NCBI GenBank assembly: GCA_040754335.1
Contig: JBFMCV010000002.1
Location: 496,001 to 560,000 of the forward strand
From: Thermodesulfobacteriota bacterium
Lineage (GTDB): Bacteria; Desulfobacterota_D; UBA1144; Nemesobacterales; UBA2774
Direction of reading: 5' to 3'
DNA length: 64,000 bases
Part shown: piece after piece, positions 14,847 to 62,687 of the stretch
Layout of the letters: each line of letters begins with the position of its first letter
Numbering within the stretch: the stretch's first letter is position 1
The notes under the pieces: generated by a model
The model's input: only the letters and a program-made list of their open reading frames with translations
Told to the model about the DNA's origin: nothing
Databases searched by the model: none
Position numbers and translations under genes: made by a program

Positions 14847-15689
14847 ATGGAAATCATCATAGCCTGGCTCACGATCGCATCCCTCATCATGATTGTAGTC
14901 GGGCTGATAGACCCGGCGATCGCGCTGCCCTGGTCGAGGGAAAAGACCAGGAAGAGGGCGGCGATGGTATACGGCTACGCGTTCTTCGCGATGGTCGCGC
15001 TCAGCATCGTGTTCTTCCCGCGCACCAACCTCGAGAGCAGGCTCTACGCCCTTTTCTTCCTCTGCATCGCCGCGCTCGCCGCGGGGCTTGCGCACCCGAG
15101 GCTCGTGCTCCCGTGGGCAAGGGAAGCCACCCGGAGCGGGGTGCTCCTGTTCTATCTCCCCCCCGCCGTGCTCCTCATAGCGGCGATGGTATACGCGAAC
15201 GCATCGCGGCAGGTGGACCCCAGGTACTACGTTCCGCCCGCCGAGTTGAGCGCCGCCGACCCGGTGAGGACGCTCAAATACAGGGCCGCCGCCGAGCTCA
15301 AGGGGCAGAACAACATAGGGCTCGACCGTGTGCGCAAGATTGAGGTGACGGAAGCGCCGGGAGGCGGGTACGAAGTGCTCGTCGAGTTCAACATCGACGA
15401 CGTGATGCTGCCCTCGTTTTTCAGGATAAAGGCCGAGTCCGATATGACGAAGGTGTACAAGGCGCTCTACACGTCCGGGTACGACGTGAAGGACGCGACA
15501 GTAACGGCCTTCTTCCCGGCCGGGTACAGGGAGAGGGAGGAGCCGACGCCCCCCGTGCCCGTGCTCACCACGTCGCTTAACGCGGCGCAGGCTTCGAAGA
15601 TCGACTGGGGCGGGAACGTCTACGAGCTCGAGGCCGAAGTCCTTCCCAAAACGTGGAAGACCATTTACAGGCGCGAGGGTTTCCAGTGA
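14847..15689 (+). CDS. Membrane protein with C-terminal soluble domain
   Basis: 280 residues, not recognised. Four membrane helices (about 3-27, 39-57, 65-84, 99-118) form two similar halves, each ending in LPW(S/A)RE, which suggests an internal duplication. The rest (about 125-280) is a soluble domain with two parts rich in beta strands. The start has no strong ribosome site. It stands alone. Confidence 0.7.
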   Translation: MEIIIAWLTIASLIMIVVGLIDPAIALPWSREKTRKRAAMVYGYAFFAMVALSIVFFPRTNLESRLYALFFLCIAALAAGLAHPRLVLPWAREATRSGVLLFYLPPAVLLIAAMVYANASRQVDPRYYVPPAELSAADPVRTLKYRAAAELKGQNNIGLDRVRKIEVTEAPGGGYEVLVEFNIDDVMLPSFFRIKAESDMTKVYKALYTSGYDVKDATVTAFFPAGYREREEPTPPVPVLTTSLNAAQASKIDWGGNVYELEAEVLPKTWKTIYRREGFQ

Positions 15690-15795
15690 TTTTTTCGGCC
15701 GCGCGCTCTGGATAAGGGTTTAATTTCCATTATAATAATCCCCGATTCAAGAGAAGCGGTCCCTGATATAACCAAAACCGGAGGTCGGATAAGCG

Positions 15796-16224
15796 GTGAT
15801 TTATTTAAAGATAATCGCGGCTCTGCTCATCGTTGCGTTCATAGGTATCCAGTTCGTTCCCGTAGAGAGGTCGAACCCGCCTGTTGCGGGCGAGATAGAC
15901 GCGCCCGCACAGGTGAAGGAGCTCATGAGGCGCTCCTGCTACGACTGCCATTCGAACGAGACCGTGTGGCCGTGGTACTCGTACATCGCGCCCGCGTCCT
16001 GGCTCCTCGCCGACGACGTTACGGAAGGGAGGGCGGAGCTCAACTTCTCCGAGTGGAACGGGTACGACGAGAAGATGAAGCAGAAGAAGATAAAGGAGAC
16101 GTGGGAGGAAGTCGGGGAAGGAGAGATGCCGCAGTGGTACTACATTCTCATGCACCCCGAGGCCAGGCTGTCGGAGGCCGACAAGAAGACGCTGCAAGAG
16201 TGGACCGCAGCGCGGGGGAAGTAG
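15796..16224 (+). CDS. Haem-binding domain protein (CxxCH)
   Basis: 142 residues. An N-terminal membrane anchor (about 3-20) and one haem c motif CYDCH (48-52) are followed by SNETVWPWYSYIAP, typical of the bacterial haem-binding domain family. A late Met (EMPQWYY) could serve as the second haem ligand. It is a likely periplasmic electron carrier or haem sensor. The start is GTG after GGAGG. Decayed copies of its 3' end lie at 16756-16797, 18947-19112 and 21912-21978. Confidence 0.85.
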   Translation: MIYLKIIAALLIVAFIGIQFVPVERSNPPVAGEIDAPAQVKELMRRSCYDCHSNETVWPWYSYIAPASWLLADDVTEGRAELNFSEWNGYDEKMKQKKIKETWEEVGEGEMPQWYYILMHPEARLSEADKKTLQEWTAARGK

Positions 16225-16225
16225 G

Positions 16226-16240
16226 GCACACAATGTGTGC
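16226..16240. repeat. Stop-codon palindrome (haem gene)
   Basis: GCACACAATGTGTGC starts one base after the TAG of the haem-binding gene and is followed by TCATGGATGAT. The same palindrome lies after the copied gene tails at 16.77 and 21.96 kb. Confidence 0.75.
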
Positions 16241-17082
16241 TCATGGATGATAATTCCGCACCTCACCAGCCTAAGCCAGCTATCACAACAATTTCGTCTT
16301 GCGCTTTTATTCCCTCCTTTGGAAAAGGAGGGTTAGGGAGGATTTTCTTTTCTTATTTTAAATCCCCATATTTAATTTAACCGAGTGAGGCACTTCGGCC
16401 AAGATGCTGACTTGCTTTCAGCCAGCTGCGACCAATTCCTCTTATTTTGACTTCAGGAAAATCTGCACGGGGGAACCTAAGCGTCATTGCATTTAGCCCT
16501 GACCGACCAATTCTTCGCTTGCTCAGAATTGTTGCTCGGAATTGTTCCCCCTTTTTCTAAGGGGGAAATAAATAGCATACTTAGGACGAACGGTGATTTG
16601 TTGTCGCGGCTGGAAGCCGCTCCTACAAATTTAAAAACGAGATCCTGAAACAATCCTGAAACGATCCCGGATCACGTCCGGGACATGGTTCAGGACATGG
16701 TTCAGGACGACAATAAACCAAATTCGCCCCTTCCTCTTACCCTCTTCCTCCGGCGCGGGGGAAGTAGGGCACACAATGTGTGCTCATGGATGATTTATCC
16801 CCTCTTTCTTAACCTGGATCGGCAATAGCGACGATTTCGTCTTGCGTTTTTATTCCCTCCTTAGAAAAAGGAGGGGTAGGGAGGATTTAGTTTTGCCCGT
16901 TCGTCCAATTTTTTATCCCCTCGCCCCAGCGTGGAACGAAGGCGAACAAGTGAGCATTCGGTCGCCTTTGAACAGAGACTATGAAGCACATCAACTTCAG
17001 GCTCAATTTTGTGAATACCATTATGCGGGATTTCCGTCAGAAATCTGACTGAAAAGGGGGATCCCGGGGGCTTGACATTCTG
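16241..17082. repeat. Repeat spacer
   Basis: No gene. A long family C copy (about 16310-16570), a family A hairpin (16602-16627), nested family B copies (16634-16715), a second copy of the haem gene's last bases plus its palindrome (16756-16797), and another family C copy fill it. Confidence 0.6.
16756..16797 (+). pseudogene. Copied tail of the haem-binding gene
   Basis: About 40 bases repeat the last codons, stop and GCACACAATGTGTGC palindrome of the 15796 gene, starting at the shared GGCGCGGGGGAAGTAG-like stretch. Nothing of the rest of the gene is present. Confidence 0.65.
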
Positions 17083-19555: not shown

Positions 19556-20452
19556 ATGTTATGGGCCGGTATTGCGCATGAGGCCTGCGGGTACATGAAT
19601 ATCTTCATGAGATTAAGGAAGTCGATTGTTTTGTTATTTCTATCGTTTGCAGTCGGCGCATCGTACGCCGATCCGGTTTTTGCTCAACCCAAATGCAGCG
19701 GTCTCGAAGCCACGATCACAGGCACGCCCGGTAATGACGTGATTAACGGTACGCCCGGTCCGGATGTAATCGCCGGACTCGCCGGGAACGATGTGATCAG
19801 GGGCCTCGGGGGCGACGACGTGATATGCGGGGGATCGGGTAATGATTTAATCGTGGGCGGAGCCGGAAACGATCAGCTTTTCGGGGAATCAGGGGCCGAT
19901 ACTTTAAGAGGCAAGGCCGGCAACGATACGTTGAGAGGCGGCATTGGAAACGATTTCCTAAACGGCGGTCCCGATATGGACGATTGCCTGGACGATACGG
20001 GATTACGCGCCGTCACGAGTTGTGAAGAGCGCGACGCGGCCGTAATGCTCGGTCTGATCAATAAAGCGCGGGCGGAAGGAAGGAACTGCGGCGATACGTT
20101 TTTCCCCGCGGCTCCCCCGCTCAACTGGGACGACAGGGTTGCGGCGGCGGCACTCGGCCACTCGACCGATATGGCCGGGACCAATTTTTTCGGACACGTG
20201 GGCTCCGACGGCTCGGACCCGGGGGACAGGCTTATGAACGAGGGCTATGACACGATGCTCTGGGGGGAGAATATCGCGGTCGGGTACGATCGCGAGGCCG
20301 CTGTCATGGACGCATGGCTCAAATCCCCCGATCACTGTGCTAACATAATGGACCCTTCTTATGAAGACGTCGGGGTCGGGTCTGCCAAGGGCAAGTTCGC
20401 GGGCAATACGGAAACGTACTGGACTCTGGACCTTGCGGCCGAGATACGGTGA
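19556..20452 (+). CDS. Secreted RTX-repeat/CAP-domain protein
   Basis: 298 residues. A signal peptide ends near SYADPVFAQ. Residues about 52-140 are Ca2+-binding RTX nonapeptides (GTPGNDVINGTPGPDVI, GGAGNDQLFG and others). Residues about 150-298 are a CAP/SCP domain: LINKARAEGR, LNWDDRVAAAALGHSTDMA, FFGHVGSDGSDPGDR, WGENIAVGY, WLKSPDHCANIMDP, YWTLDLA. CAP domains of this YkwD type are secreted, with uncertain catalysis; the putative His pair (GHST, GH) is present. The start is unsure: GGAG precedes 19556 by four bases, but a later ATG would give a shorter signal peptide. Confidence 0.85.
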   Translation: MLWAGIAHEACGYMNIFMRLRKSIVLLFLSFAVGASYADPVFAQPKCSGLEATITGTPGNDVINGTPGPDVIAGLAGNDVIRGLGGDDVICGGSGNDLIVGGAGNDQLFGESGADTLRGKAGNDTLRGGIGNDFLNGGPDMDDCLDDTGLRAVTSCEERDAAVMLGLINKARAEGRNCGDTFFPAAPPLNWDDRVAAAALGHSTDMAGTNFFGHVGSDGSDPGDRLMNEGYDTMLWGENIAVGYDREAAVMDAWLKSPDHCANIMDPSYEDVGVGSAKGKFAGNTETYWTLDLAAEIR

Positions 20453-20509: not shown

Positions 20510-20939
20510 TGTCATGCTGAACCATGTCCTGAATTTATTTCAGGATTGTTTCAGCATCTAAAATTCTTTTAATATATTCGCATGTTCCGTTCATATATTT
20601 ACATTATGAGCAATAAAAAGTTCACAACACTTTATATAGGAGTAACAAATGATCTGGAAAGGAGGGTGCTGGAACATAAGCTGGGAACAGGCTCGGATTT
20701 TACAACGAGATATAAATTGGATCGGCTGATTTATTTCGAGGAAGGCGTAAGGATAGAGGATGCAATTGCCAGAGAGAAGCAGTTAAAGAGATGGCACCGC
20801 GAATGGAAGTGGAACTTGATAAAATCCATGAACCCCACGCTTGAGGATTTATCGAAGGGTTGGTATGACGATGAACTGCTTAAAAAACGAGATGCTGAAT
20901 AGATCCTGAAACTAGTTCAGGACATGGTTCAGCATGACA
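20510..20939 (+). mobile_element. Candidate GIY-YIG cassette with inverted repeat ends
   Basis: A 430-bp unit whose outer 24 bases are perfect inverted repeats (20510-20533 and 20916-20939). The ends are nested family B elements in opposite orientation (20510-20558 and 20889-20939). It holds only the GIY-YIG gene, whose last codons lie in the right repeat. No target-site duplication is obvious. A mobile role is inferred from architecture only. Confidence 0.55.
20582..20902 (+). CDS. Single-domain GIY-YIG nuclease
   Basis: 106 residues, the UPF0213-like stand-alone GIY-YIG fold. Seen: YIYIM (5-9), LYIGVTNDLERRVLEHK (17-33), and the AIAREKQLKRWHREWK helix with the probable catalytic Glu, then NP...DL. 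Relatives cleave DNA, often in repair or homing; single-domain members are little studied. The final residues (KKRDAE) and stop are encoded by the flanking family B repeat. The start lacks a good ribosome site. Confidence 0.88.
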   Translation: MFRSYIYIMSNKKFTTLYIGVTNDLERRVLEHKLGTGSDFTTRYKLDRLIYFEEGVRIEDAIAREKQLKRWHREWKWNLIKSMNPTLEDLSKGWYDDELLKKRDAE

Positions 20940-33025: not shown

Positions 33026-33194
33026 TGTCCATTAACCCGTTCATACTTCGATCCCCCGACGGCTCATAGCCTATGGGCGACGTGCCGCACGCTCAGTACG
33101 AACGGCTTAAAAATGAGACCCTGAAACAAGTTCAGGGTGACAAAGGTATGAATGTCTTTTCCCTTCTGGTCAGTGATGGGTATATTTTCCCTGC

Positions 33195-38472: not shown

Positions 38473-39561
38473 TGTCCATCCTCCTTTAAGGCCGAGTGGC
38501 ATAGATTAACACGAAAATATAAAGATTAATAATTATAACCCCGGCTGGATGGAAGGGGGAGACGGGGACTACGCCTCTTACTTTGCACGCCCGAGCAGGA
38601 TGTCTGGCTACGTCTTTGACTACCCGGCTTACCGGCTTCGCTTCGCTACGCCGTGGCATGCGCCGGGACATGCATGGTGCAGGATACAGGATGAAAGAAA
38701 TGGATTCCCGATTTATTTCGGCTTGTGCTGCCGAGGAGCCTGAATAAAGAGACTTACTTGCAATAAGCCATGAGCGACCGGTTCTCACCAATTTGGCTTC
38801 CGTTGCTACGATGCGGAGAAATAATAAGATTCGTGCACACATCCATTAGAGACCAATTTATTTTGGCTTCAATAGAGCATCCCATGCTATAATCGTCCGT
38901 GTATTCGGCCGGAAGAGACCGGATTCTCTTATTTTGGCTTAAATCAGTAAGTAGCCGGGGATAATTAACTTGTGAGTAATCTGTCTAAGGAGTCCGATTC
39001 CTCACGCGTTCAGAATCGTTGCTCGAATCCGTTACTTGCCCGGATTTGCTGTTCAGAACCGTGGTCGGGAATGACAAAAATAAAAATCCCCCCGAACCCC
39101 CCTTTAAGAAAGGGGGGATTAAAAGGAAAGGCAAAAGTTGGATTTTTCACGTGAGTTCGAAATGACAAGTTAAGGATGAGATTGCCGCGCTTCCACTCGC
39201 TTTCACTCGTTCCGCTCGCAATGACAGGAAAAAGATGAGATGCTGAATAGATCCTGAAACGATCCCGGATCGGAGTTCCTGAATCAAGTTCAGGACAGGC
39301 CGGGACGTGGTTCAGGGCATGGTTCAGGATGACAAGATAGATTTCTTGTTTTGGCTTGTGCGGATTGTATACGATGTGAATGTGAGTTATGTGCAATCAG
39401 CTAAGAGCGACCAGTTTAATATGGCTTCACGAGATTGTCCTTCGTTGATCAGCAGACTTGCACTCAACCAATAACAACCAATTGCTCACTTGCTCGCAAT
39501 TGTTGCCTGCTCAGAACTGTTGCTCGAAATGACAAAACAGGAGGTGCATGGACGGAGCTGC
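38473..39561. repeat. Long repeat field
   Basis: No gene in 1.1 kb. Family G and B fragments (38600-38710), family C interiors (38760-39060), a family C copy (39083-39125), several family B copies with different arms (39130-39340), and a hairpin CAATTGC-tcaCTTGCTC-GCAATTG (39480-39502). Confidence 0.6.
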
Positions 39562-47182: not shown

Positions 47183-48191
47183 GAGTAACTACTTTCACTT
47201 CGTGACCTGAGTGCCGGAGCCAGCAGCATAATGAGCGGCAGGGGACGACGCGGGGCGGCGCGAGAAGGAATTTTATTCATCCGGCGAACGAAACTTGTAC
47301 TCCATATTCTGTATTGCTTAATCACAGATAGGGCTTATTAATTTTACTTAATTATAATCCCTATTTGCCGGAATTTGCCGGCCCGTCCGCACAGGGTGCG
47401 GAATTCGTGAAATACCGCCGGGAACCGGACGGAACGCCGGGACCGGGCACTTACAATCGCAGCGGGGAATGACGGAAAGATTAAGGTAAACCCCCGCCCA
47501 AGCTGTTTTTGGCTTATGTGTGATTGAGCCGGAAGTCAATTTGCTTCTGTGACTTTGTTGTGAGTGCGACCGGTTTCGCGCTCGCTTGCAGCCGGTCCCC
47601 GTTTGGAAGGCGGAGGGGAAAAGAGGAAGGTGCGGGATTGCAGCGCTGCTCCCGGTTTCGCTGAAACTTCGCAGGACAGGTCGCGCTCCCTCGTAATGAC
47701 GGAAAAGATAGAGCCGAGATGCTGAAACAAGTTCAGCATGACAGTTATTTATAGCGTGCCCCCTCATCCTGAAACGATCCTGGATCAAGTCCAGGAAATG
47801 GTTCAGGATGACAAGATAATGATGAGATTGCCCCCGGATCGGTGTCCGGGGCAGGCGCGGCTCATTCTGAGCCTCGCAATGACAAATATCGCGTCCTTCG
47901 ACTGTACGCTGCATGTGCGCCCGGGACGAACAGGGAAAAAACTAAATCCTCCCTAGCCCTCCTTTTAGATCCTGAAACGAGTTCAGGACAGGGGAGGGGA
48001 TTAAAGGAATCGCGGCAGGATGCCGCTCCTACAGCTTATTAAAGGCGAGATTCCCGATCGGTGTCGGGAATGACAAAAATAAAAGAAGAGATTGCCGCGC
48101 TTACGGCTTCGCCCAAGGCTACGCCGCACAAGCAGGGCGAACGGGTATGGTTGAGCAGAGTCGGTGAATAGGACCGTATGCCCGCGGGTGC
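47183..48191. repeat. Long repeat field
   Basis: No gene in 1 kb. Nothing clear to 47455. Then a family C interior, family B copies with GCTGAA arms (47717-47744), CCTGAA arms (47767-47812) and CCCGA arms (48046-48074), and family A (48007-48032). Confidence 0.55.
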
Positions 48192-57259: not shown

Positions 57260-58191
57260 ATTCTTCCGATGGCCGCACACGCGGGGTTTAGGAAAAGACT
57301 AAAGAAAAGGAACGCTAATTTTATTTCTTCTTTTCCTTGATGAAAAGAAGCAAAAATCACCCGACAGAACAGAATTTGCTAAAAATATCGCATTAAGGCT
57401 AAAATCGTTCAATTCTGCCCCAATTGGCAAAGTAGTTTAGTGATAGCCAAGGTTAATTTATTTCATAATGGTAGGTGAGGGCGTCCGAATGCGCGCTCGC
57501 TTGCATTCGTTCCCTGAACGATTTTCACGCCTTAATACTCTATTTTCTTAACGATTTGCCAGTAGAAAATAACGGAGCCAAGAAAGTGGCACGTTGTCTG
57601 TTAGGATAGAGCGACCGATTCCTCGCTTGCTCGAAATCGTTTCTGTAATGTCGGGAAAGGAAAAGAACGGGATTGCCGCGCGGAGTTTATCCTGAGCGGA
57701 GTCGATGGACTCGCAATGACACCCTTTTTCTGTCTTCGCGAGGCTACGAATGTAGCCGTGGCGATCTCGCTTTATTCATGAGATTGCCGCGGTCGCTATG
57801 CTCCCTCGCAAAGACAGATTAAAAGCAAATCCACCCTATCCCTCCTTTACAAAGGAGGGGATAAAATGAAAAAGAACAGACGGGATGCTGAAACAAGTTC
57901 AGCATGACAAAATTATTAGATTCCCGATCGTGGTTCCTGAATAGATCCCGGATCGGAGTTCCTGAATCAAGTTCAGGACAGGCCGGGACATGGTTCAGGA
58001 CAGGCGGGAATGACAGAAAAATTAAGGAAGCCTAACCCATTCATGCTTCGACCCTTCGGCTAAGCTCAGGACAGGCGCGCAGTTCGGTATTATCCTGTCT
58101 CCATTATTTGGCGAAAGTTGATGAGTGACAGAGGAATCGTACATGAGCGCAGATTCTGCGCCTCAGGACGAACGGGTTGAGTTTTCATACC
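57260..58191. repeat. Repeat field with family F copy 3
   Basis: No gene. Family F copy 3 (57328-57654), family B copies, family C (57826-57862), family B with GCTGAA arms (57882-57908), nested family B, and a long family E copy (58030-58178). Confidence 0.6.
57328..57654. repeat. Structured element family F, copy 3
   Basis: Hairpin CTTCTTTTC/GAAAAGAAG (about 57327-57350). Stems: ATTAAGGC (57392-57399) with GCCTTAAT (57529-57536), and AAAATCGTTCA (57401-57411) with TGAACGATTTT (57515-57525), both perfect. The long loop holds a GAATGC/GCATTC hairpin of family C interior type. Confidence 0.7.
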
Positions 58192-61978: not shown

Positions 61979-62687
61979 GGGTTGGTGCTCTACTGGATTG
62001 ACACCCGTTCGCCCTGAAGCGCAGAACCTGCGCTCGTATATGGTCCCTGTGTCGCTCCTAAGATTTAACCGAATTATGGAGCCAATCCAGAACTGCGCGC
62101 CTGTCCTGAGCGTAGTCAAAGGATCGAAGGGTTGAACGGGTTTAACAAAGTGAAAGGAAAAATCCACCCTAGCCTAATTTGGCTTAGGCCACGAACAGCC
62201 GCAAATTTATTTACTTTGGTGCCTTTGTCGTTAGGGTGTCCGGTTCTTACGCTTGCTCAGAACCGTTCTTTACGAAAGGAGGGGATGAAATTAATTGCAA
62301 ATGATGAGATTGCCGCGCTTTCGGCTCGCAAAGACAGATTAAAGCGAGATGCTGAATAGATCCCGTGTCGTGGCACGGGACATGGTTCAGCATGACAGAT
62401 AAATGCAAAAAAGATAGATTTCTCACGTGCGTTCGAAATGACAACGTTGAAAGACGAGATTCCCGATCGGCGTCGGGAATGACAGAAAGGAAGGGACGAG
62501 ATTGCCGCGGTCGCTGTGCTCCCTCGCAAAGACACACTTCGACAAGCTCAGGGCGAACGGGTTTAAAAAAGCGAAAGAGAAAATCCTCCCTGACTCTCCT
62601 TTTTCTAAGGAGGGAATTAAAGATGAAAAGCAAAAGATGAGATTGCTTCGCTTCGCTCGCAAAGACAAGAATGTAATGTTCCCCCCG
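61979..62687. repeat. Dense repeat field
   Basis: No gene. In order: reversed long family E (62008-62140), family C with a CGGTTCT/AGAACCG hairpin (62160-62288), family B with GCCGCG arms, nested family B (62347-62397), family B with TTTC/GAAA arms (62418-62442), family B with CCCGA arms (62457-62484), another GCCGCG copy, and family C (62582-62622). Confidence 0.65.

Follow-up and report, generated by a model that had tools for sequence, protein, structure and literature searches.

A small GIY-YIG nuclease gene boxed by TGTC-tagged palindromic repeats: a candidate spreader of the CGTC class of bacterial REPs

A 430-bp unit, in which two inverted hairpin arms enclose a gene for a small GIY-YIG nuclease, is likely to represent the autonomous version, equipped with a gene, of a CGTC/TGTC-tagged REP, with solo and nested repeats as its non-autonomous relatives and with spread driven by cutting by the nuclease and subsequent repair. 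As judged from comparison of sequences, the structure of the unit, its generality, the pairing of nuclease clades with repeat classes, the co-occurrence of gene and repeats and the gain or loss of whole units are evident, and we infer mobilization by the enzyme, that is, cutting of hairpins of its own class and their spread. A 2013 survey divided bacterial REPs into a GTAG class with RAYT transposases and a CGTC class whose members “apparently lack a dedicated transposase,” found no transposase gene flanked by CGTC repeats and left open how this class spreads (Di Nocera et al., 2013; PMC3733652). Across many phyla, each branch of the GIY-YIG nuclease family is matched to a kind of repeat of its own, which makes this nuclease a strong candidate for the enzyme, so far missing, behind the spread of the CGTC class, one of the two big classes of bacterial palindromic repeats. 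A search of open papers, with preprints and most subscription journals outside its scope, found no earlier report linking GIY-YIG to bacterial REP, CGTC, RPE or REPIN repeats, and a 2025 REP paper that cites the 2013 survey mentions neither GIY-YIG nor transposases.

The unit lies in a 64-kb window, by which we mean the whole stretch of DNA that was analyzed, and has the following parts:

20510-20939, the 430-bp unit: two inverted hairpin arms with the GIY-YIG gene between them
20510-20559, plus strand, left end: nested, REP-like hairpin with an outward TGTC tag, matching the right end in inverted orientation; fold z -5.4
20582-20902, plus strand: GIY-YIG nuclease gene, 106 aa, the sole cargo; Pfam GIY-YIG E=5.5e-15
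20890-20939, minus strand, right end: nested hairpin with an outward TGTC tag, which overlaps the final codons of the gene; fold z -4.8; solo copies elsewhere in the genome

The arms are 50 nt each, inverted and 88% complementary, and are perfect over their outer 24 nt (TGTCATGCTGAACCATGTCCTGAA), as the preliminary description had stated; they are the sole perfect inverted pair of at least 20 nt at 150-600 nt spacing in a scan of the 64-kb window. Each arm folds with an outer stem, ATGCTGAA/TTCAGCAT, that bears the TGTC tag, unpaired, at the outer end, while a second hairpin (TCCTGAA/TTCAGGA) replaces the loop of the outer one. These folds are far better than those of shuffled sequences by the z values above, which bears out the claim of a nested palindromic element at each end. 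The gene had also been correctly described as the only cargo, with its end in the right repeat, since the right arm contains the codons GAT GCT GAA and the stop TAG (20900-20902). Solo copies of the right-hand element, of ~56-59 nt and ~89-93% identity, are found elsewhere in the genome.

The encoded protein belongs to the GIY-YIG superfamily by its Pfam GIY-YIG domain and its conserved catalytic residues, with the active-site residues Y7, Y18, R28, E65 and N84 invariant in a 12-member alignment, and a Pfam search gave no Y1_Tnp match to it. A single-sequence structure model was of low confidence (mean pLDDT 57), and no conclusion rests on it. The gene just upstream (window 19556-20452), read by eye, encodes RTX-like calcium-binding repeats followed by an apparent CAP/SCP-type domain.

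Eighteen GTC-tagged hairpins were found in the window, and the only ones that face outward around a gene are the two ends of the unit; the repeats elsewhere in the window stand alone, as originally described. Gene-less copies include the following:

16640-16705, minus strand: nested copy of the same repeat class as the unit ends
33118-33141, minus strand: simple copy of the same class as the unit ends (GTCACCCTGAACT..)
39238-39334, minus strand: multiply nested copy; nested fold, z -4.0
47719-47812, minus strand: two neighboring copies of the unit-end class
57885-57908, minus strand: simple copy
62347-62397, minus strand: nested copy with an inner hairpin of another class (CCCGTG)

Simple copies have the form ATGCTGAA-CTTGT-TTCAGCAT, and the inner hairpins of the nested elements at 39238-39334 and 62347-62397 differ from that of the unit. 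The nested hairpins at 16640-16705, 39238-39334 and 62347-62397, sometimes with another class inside, look as if the loop tip were a favored insertion site. The genome as a whole holds 35 CTGAA, 49 CCCG and 41 TGCG copies. Three GIY-YIG matches in it exceed the Pfam cut-off; one is a domain within a 606-aa frame, and the other two are small genes. The second small gene (C1:514.8 kb) is likewise boxed, by inverted copies of a different palindromic class, GTCATTGCGAG..GCAATCTC / GTCATTGCGAG..GCGGCAATCTC.

Boxing of this kind is widespread. Homologues of the window protein are present in 23 of 61 related genomes, most of them flanked by outward-pointing repeats starting GTCAT or GTCAC, and a scan of named genomes added 80 further loci in Bacteroidota, Pseudomonadota, Ignavibacteriota, Spirochaetota, Chloroflexota, Thermotogota, several candidate phyla and others. 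Inverted-repeat flanks, defined by a score of 24 or more between the two flanks of 150 nt, were found for 74% of these 80 homologues vs 2.4% of 1010 control windows, which were drawn from the same loci with the same geometry (Mann-Whitney p=6e-32), and about a quarter of the homologues had none at this threshold; none were found for the Rhizobium tumorigenes homologue. Outward-tagged hairpins stood on both sides of 34/80 homologues vs 5/1010 controls, and inward-facing ones flanked 2/80. A matching 10-mer after GTC was seen on both sides at 55 of 110 loci and in 0 of 2000 shuffled flank pairs. At the CIAT894 locus an IS disrupts the left flank, and no usable empty site was available.

Individual loci offered further observations. 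A Neisseria gonorrhoeae record (L126) has a GIY-YIG gene among CGTCATTCCCGC..GCGGGAATC repeats, one of which overlaps the end of the gene; these repeats resemble the neisserial dRS3 repeats. On a Planktothrix agardhii plasmid (L129), a GIY-YIG gene with CTGAG-class repeats has an MmeI-type restriction gene on one side and DISARM drmA on the other. The nuclease gene is frameshifted or broken in several copies (L130; L033; G021:C31; G032:C6), as expected of a dispensable selfish gene.

Repeats were sorted by stem into CTGAA, CCCG, TCCTGC, CTGAG and TGCG classes, which were defined by sequence pattern after the flanks had been seen, with six labels added by hand. On a maximum-likelihood tree of 106 nucleases, 65 rows of which were labeled, repeat class changes 7 times, compared with a mean of 33.9 changes when labels were shuffled (minimum 27 in 1000) and 29.0 (minimum 21) when they were shuffled within host phylum only; the alignment has only ~100 columns and many forks of the tree are open, a weakness tempered by the use of the same tree in the shuffles. 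Host phylum changes 23 times on this tree, and the repeat thus follows the nuclease more closely than it follows the host. Boxed genes occur as well in a deeper, YhbQ-like GIY-YIG clade (L193-L196, in relatives), where the inverted CGTTC..CTGAG..TCGAAG repeats form another widespread class. Several repeat classes each have a nuclease clade of their own, and the link thus extends beyond the “family B” repeats of the preliminary description.

Gene and repeats also co-occur. When three repeat classes were counted in the 61 relatives (reversed-pattern controls, 0), at least five repeats were present in 21 of 23 gene-bearing genomes vs 2 of 38 without the gene (Fisher p=5e-12; medians 31 and 0), in tests that control genome kinship only partly; the contrast was seen again inside families f1, f4 and f6. 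Among gene-bearing genomes, each class was commoner where a nuclease of its own class was seen (p=0.017, 0.005 and 0.022; combined permutation p=2e-4). In some genomes (e.g., G002, G003, G014 and G025), CTGAA repeats were present and no nuclease of the CTGAA class was found.

Comparison of orthologous sites indicates that whole units have been gained or lost, the direction at each site being left aside. In the fnrL-fixJ spacer of Sphingobium plasmids, seven records have the unit, its gene being frameshifted in one of them, and five lack it. Two of the empty alleles (L132/L133) have a single palindrome instead, perfect in one (CGTCACCCCGGGTCAAGCCCGGGGTGACG), two others have different sequence with small palindromes, and the S. 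herbicidovorans spacer has neither unit nor repeat; the single palindrome of L132/L133 is lacking in L134, L135 and L137 and in the empty alleles of Azospirillum. Azospirillum lipoferum 4B has the gene inside its suf operon, in the sufB-sufC gap, bracketed by two outward-tagged repeat dimers, and three relatives with 95-96% identity have no unit there. Shinella PSBB067 holds a different unit in the same gap. Shinella HZN7 has a unit between two genes that stand without one in S. sumterensis and S. zoogloeoides. Within the genus of the window, G003 has an orthologue of the gene upstream of the unit with no unit downstream. In G001, a unit stands beside the orthologue of window stretch 15083-16239, where the genome studied here has repeats only. 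As the spacers have diverged, the exact insertion junction or a target duplication is not readable at the compared sites. The sufB-sufC gap used by GIY-YIG units in Azospirillum and Shinella contains a DUF559 nuclease-like gene in Sphingomonas parapaucimobilis (L190).

The preliminary description had named two findings that would tell against it, homologues without flanking repeats and an absence of gain or loss of the unit; neither was borne out, as inverted-repeat flanks were found at 74% of 80 homologues and units were present or absent at orthologous sites. Its likening of the unit to the REP/RAYT relationship gains strong support from the boxed homologues in many phyla and from a repeat class that tracks nuclease clade. 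Its further suggestion, of an autonomous form that spreads the repeats, is strongly supported by comparison as regards the autonomous form, and spreading by the protein is the part that we infer.

The orientation of the repeats provides a lead on mechanism. Past ~500 kb of contig C2 (~500-644 kb, the window and beyond), 42 of 42 consecutive repeats are on the minus strand. For 61 repeats in stretches of this genome, including C8, direction follows the sign of GC skew, whatever the direction of neighboring genes (p=3e-6, an optimistic value since neighboring repeats are not independent); all 31 repeats in positive-skew stretches are minus, and 7 of the 8 in negative-skew ones are plus. In a second genome, G006, overall repeat direction showed no relation to GC skew and only strong-skew stretches agreed, and, given this weak replication, polarity is treated as a lead: it is the pattern that single-strand action at the replication fork would leave.

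A mechanism consistent with these findings would have the nuclease recognize tagged hairpins of its own class and cut at or near the tag, after which the whole unit or a bare hairpin could spread when the host repairs the cuts, with the DNA probably single-stranded at a replication fork during this process. GIY-YIG enzymes hydrolyze DNA with no covalent intermediate, so that joining by host repair would be expected instead of strand transfer of the Y1 type; to our knowledge, no GIY-YIG enzyme joins DNA. The balance of the evidence leans toward a broader reading, in which small GIY-YIG nucleases would be dedicated mobilizers of CGTC-REPs and, with them, would form unrecognized, phylum-spanning minimal mobile elements that move by replication-coupled cutting and repair, in convergence with the unrelated RAYT/REP system; the deeper clade would do likewise for CGTTC..TCGAAG repeats.

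The main alternative is that the enzyme is a homing nuclease living in the repeats, which would be only its landing site: it would cut alleles with an intact hairpin and copy itself by gene conversion, and the repeats would have been multiplied otherwise. Known homing endonucleases include GIY-YIG enzymes, and the gene-less Sphingobium alleles that hold a single palindrome where sister plasmids have the unit fit this view. Nevertheless, homing is unlikely as the explanation. Repeat number, both from genome to genome and class by class, can be predicted from the presence of the gene, a link not required of a mere lodger, and some empty alleles (S. herbicidovorans; Azospirillum) hold no tagged repeat at all. 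Still less probable is that the nuclease serves the host by processing hairpins, so as to control or remove REPs, and that selection keeps it near them without any part in their spread. Hairpins can block replication, and the UPF0213 relatives with solved structures have no assigned function, but the class of repeat follows the nuclease from phylum to phylum, units appear and disappear, broken copies are common, and housekeeping control would not need inverted ends of matching class.

Mobilization by Y1/RAYT-type transposases, with the GIY-YIG gene as a passenger, has a precedent in the RAYTs that mobilize GTAG-tagged REPs (cited in PMC3733652), although the same survey found no transposase for CGTC repeats. 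It is very improbable here and was rejected for want of any association across the 61 genomes, in which Y1_Tnp is unlinked to the repeats (11/30 vs 12/31, p=1); moreover, ten genomes from the same family that bear repeats (G001-G003, G005-G010 and G015) gave no Y1_Tnp match, and Y1 genes were boxed by tagged hairpins in 0/27 cases and had inverted flanks in 2/27. Chance would require that two repeats merely happen to flank a gene, in a window where repeats are dense, but the pair is the only one of its kind in 64 kb. This explanation has next to no probability and is excluded by the control rates (2.4% vs 74%; 0/2000 shuffled) together with the second, differently boxed GIY-YIG gene.

On the preferred reading, of an autonomous unit whose nuclease spreads the repeats, a concrete candidate enzyme can be named for the CGTC class, and from the pairing of clade with class one can predict the hairpin that each enzyme should cut; the orthologous sites supply ready-made occupied and empty pairs. 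If true, it would assign a function to a common set of small, little-characterized GIY-YIG genes, and hairpin-based minimal mobile elements would have arisen with two unrelated nucleases.

Among known systems, the unit ends are, by tag, stem and loop, TGTC-tagged members of the CGTC-REP superfamily with a different tail. This superfamily, which includes Rickettsia, Neisseria and alphaproteobacterial repeats (PMC3733652), has an unpaired CGTC/TGTC (or CCTC) tag at one end, as do the arms with their TGTC; an 8-9 bp stem starting with AT pairs and a loop of 4-5, as seen in the simple copies; and many dispersed intergenic copies and inverted dimers, with multiple copies here as well. The tail of the CTGAA class is CTA/CTC, i.e., CT(A/C), instead of CCA, but the survey states that “most” CGTC-REP tails fit CCA, so a CCA tail is no strict requirement; in other genomes, repeats of the CCCG class do have the CCA ending. 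Also unlike the superfamily as described, the unit ends are nested, with a second hairpin in the loop, and a GIY-YIG gene is boxed by the repeats where the survey had no transposase gene.

The closest solved relatives of the protein by sequence profile are small GIY-YIG proteins of UPF0213/COG2827 (PDB 1zg2 and 1ywl; E 3e-8 and 5e-6), which are structural-genomics entries without an assigned function and for which the search output notes no link to repeats. GIY-YIG homing endonucleases (e.g., I-TevI and the phage Seg enzymes) share the catalytic domain and the selfish-looking gene, whereas the protein studied here has ~100 aa with no separate DNA-binding domain recognized by Pfam, and its gene is flanked by its own multicopy hairpins and is not in an intron or phage. 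The RAYT/GTAG-REP system and REPINs offer the nearest parallel, with an enzyme gene flanked by inverted REPs, clades paired with repeat classes and many gene-less copies. The enzyme there is a Y1 HuH nuclease and here a GIY-YIG nuclease, from unrelated families, and the tag is GTAG there and TGTC here; the GIY-YIG system thus seems to work like RAYT/REP while differing from it in enzyme family and tag, and is on both counts no member of it.
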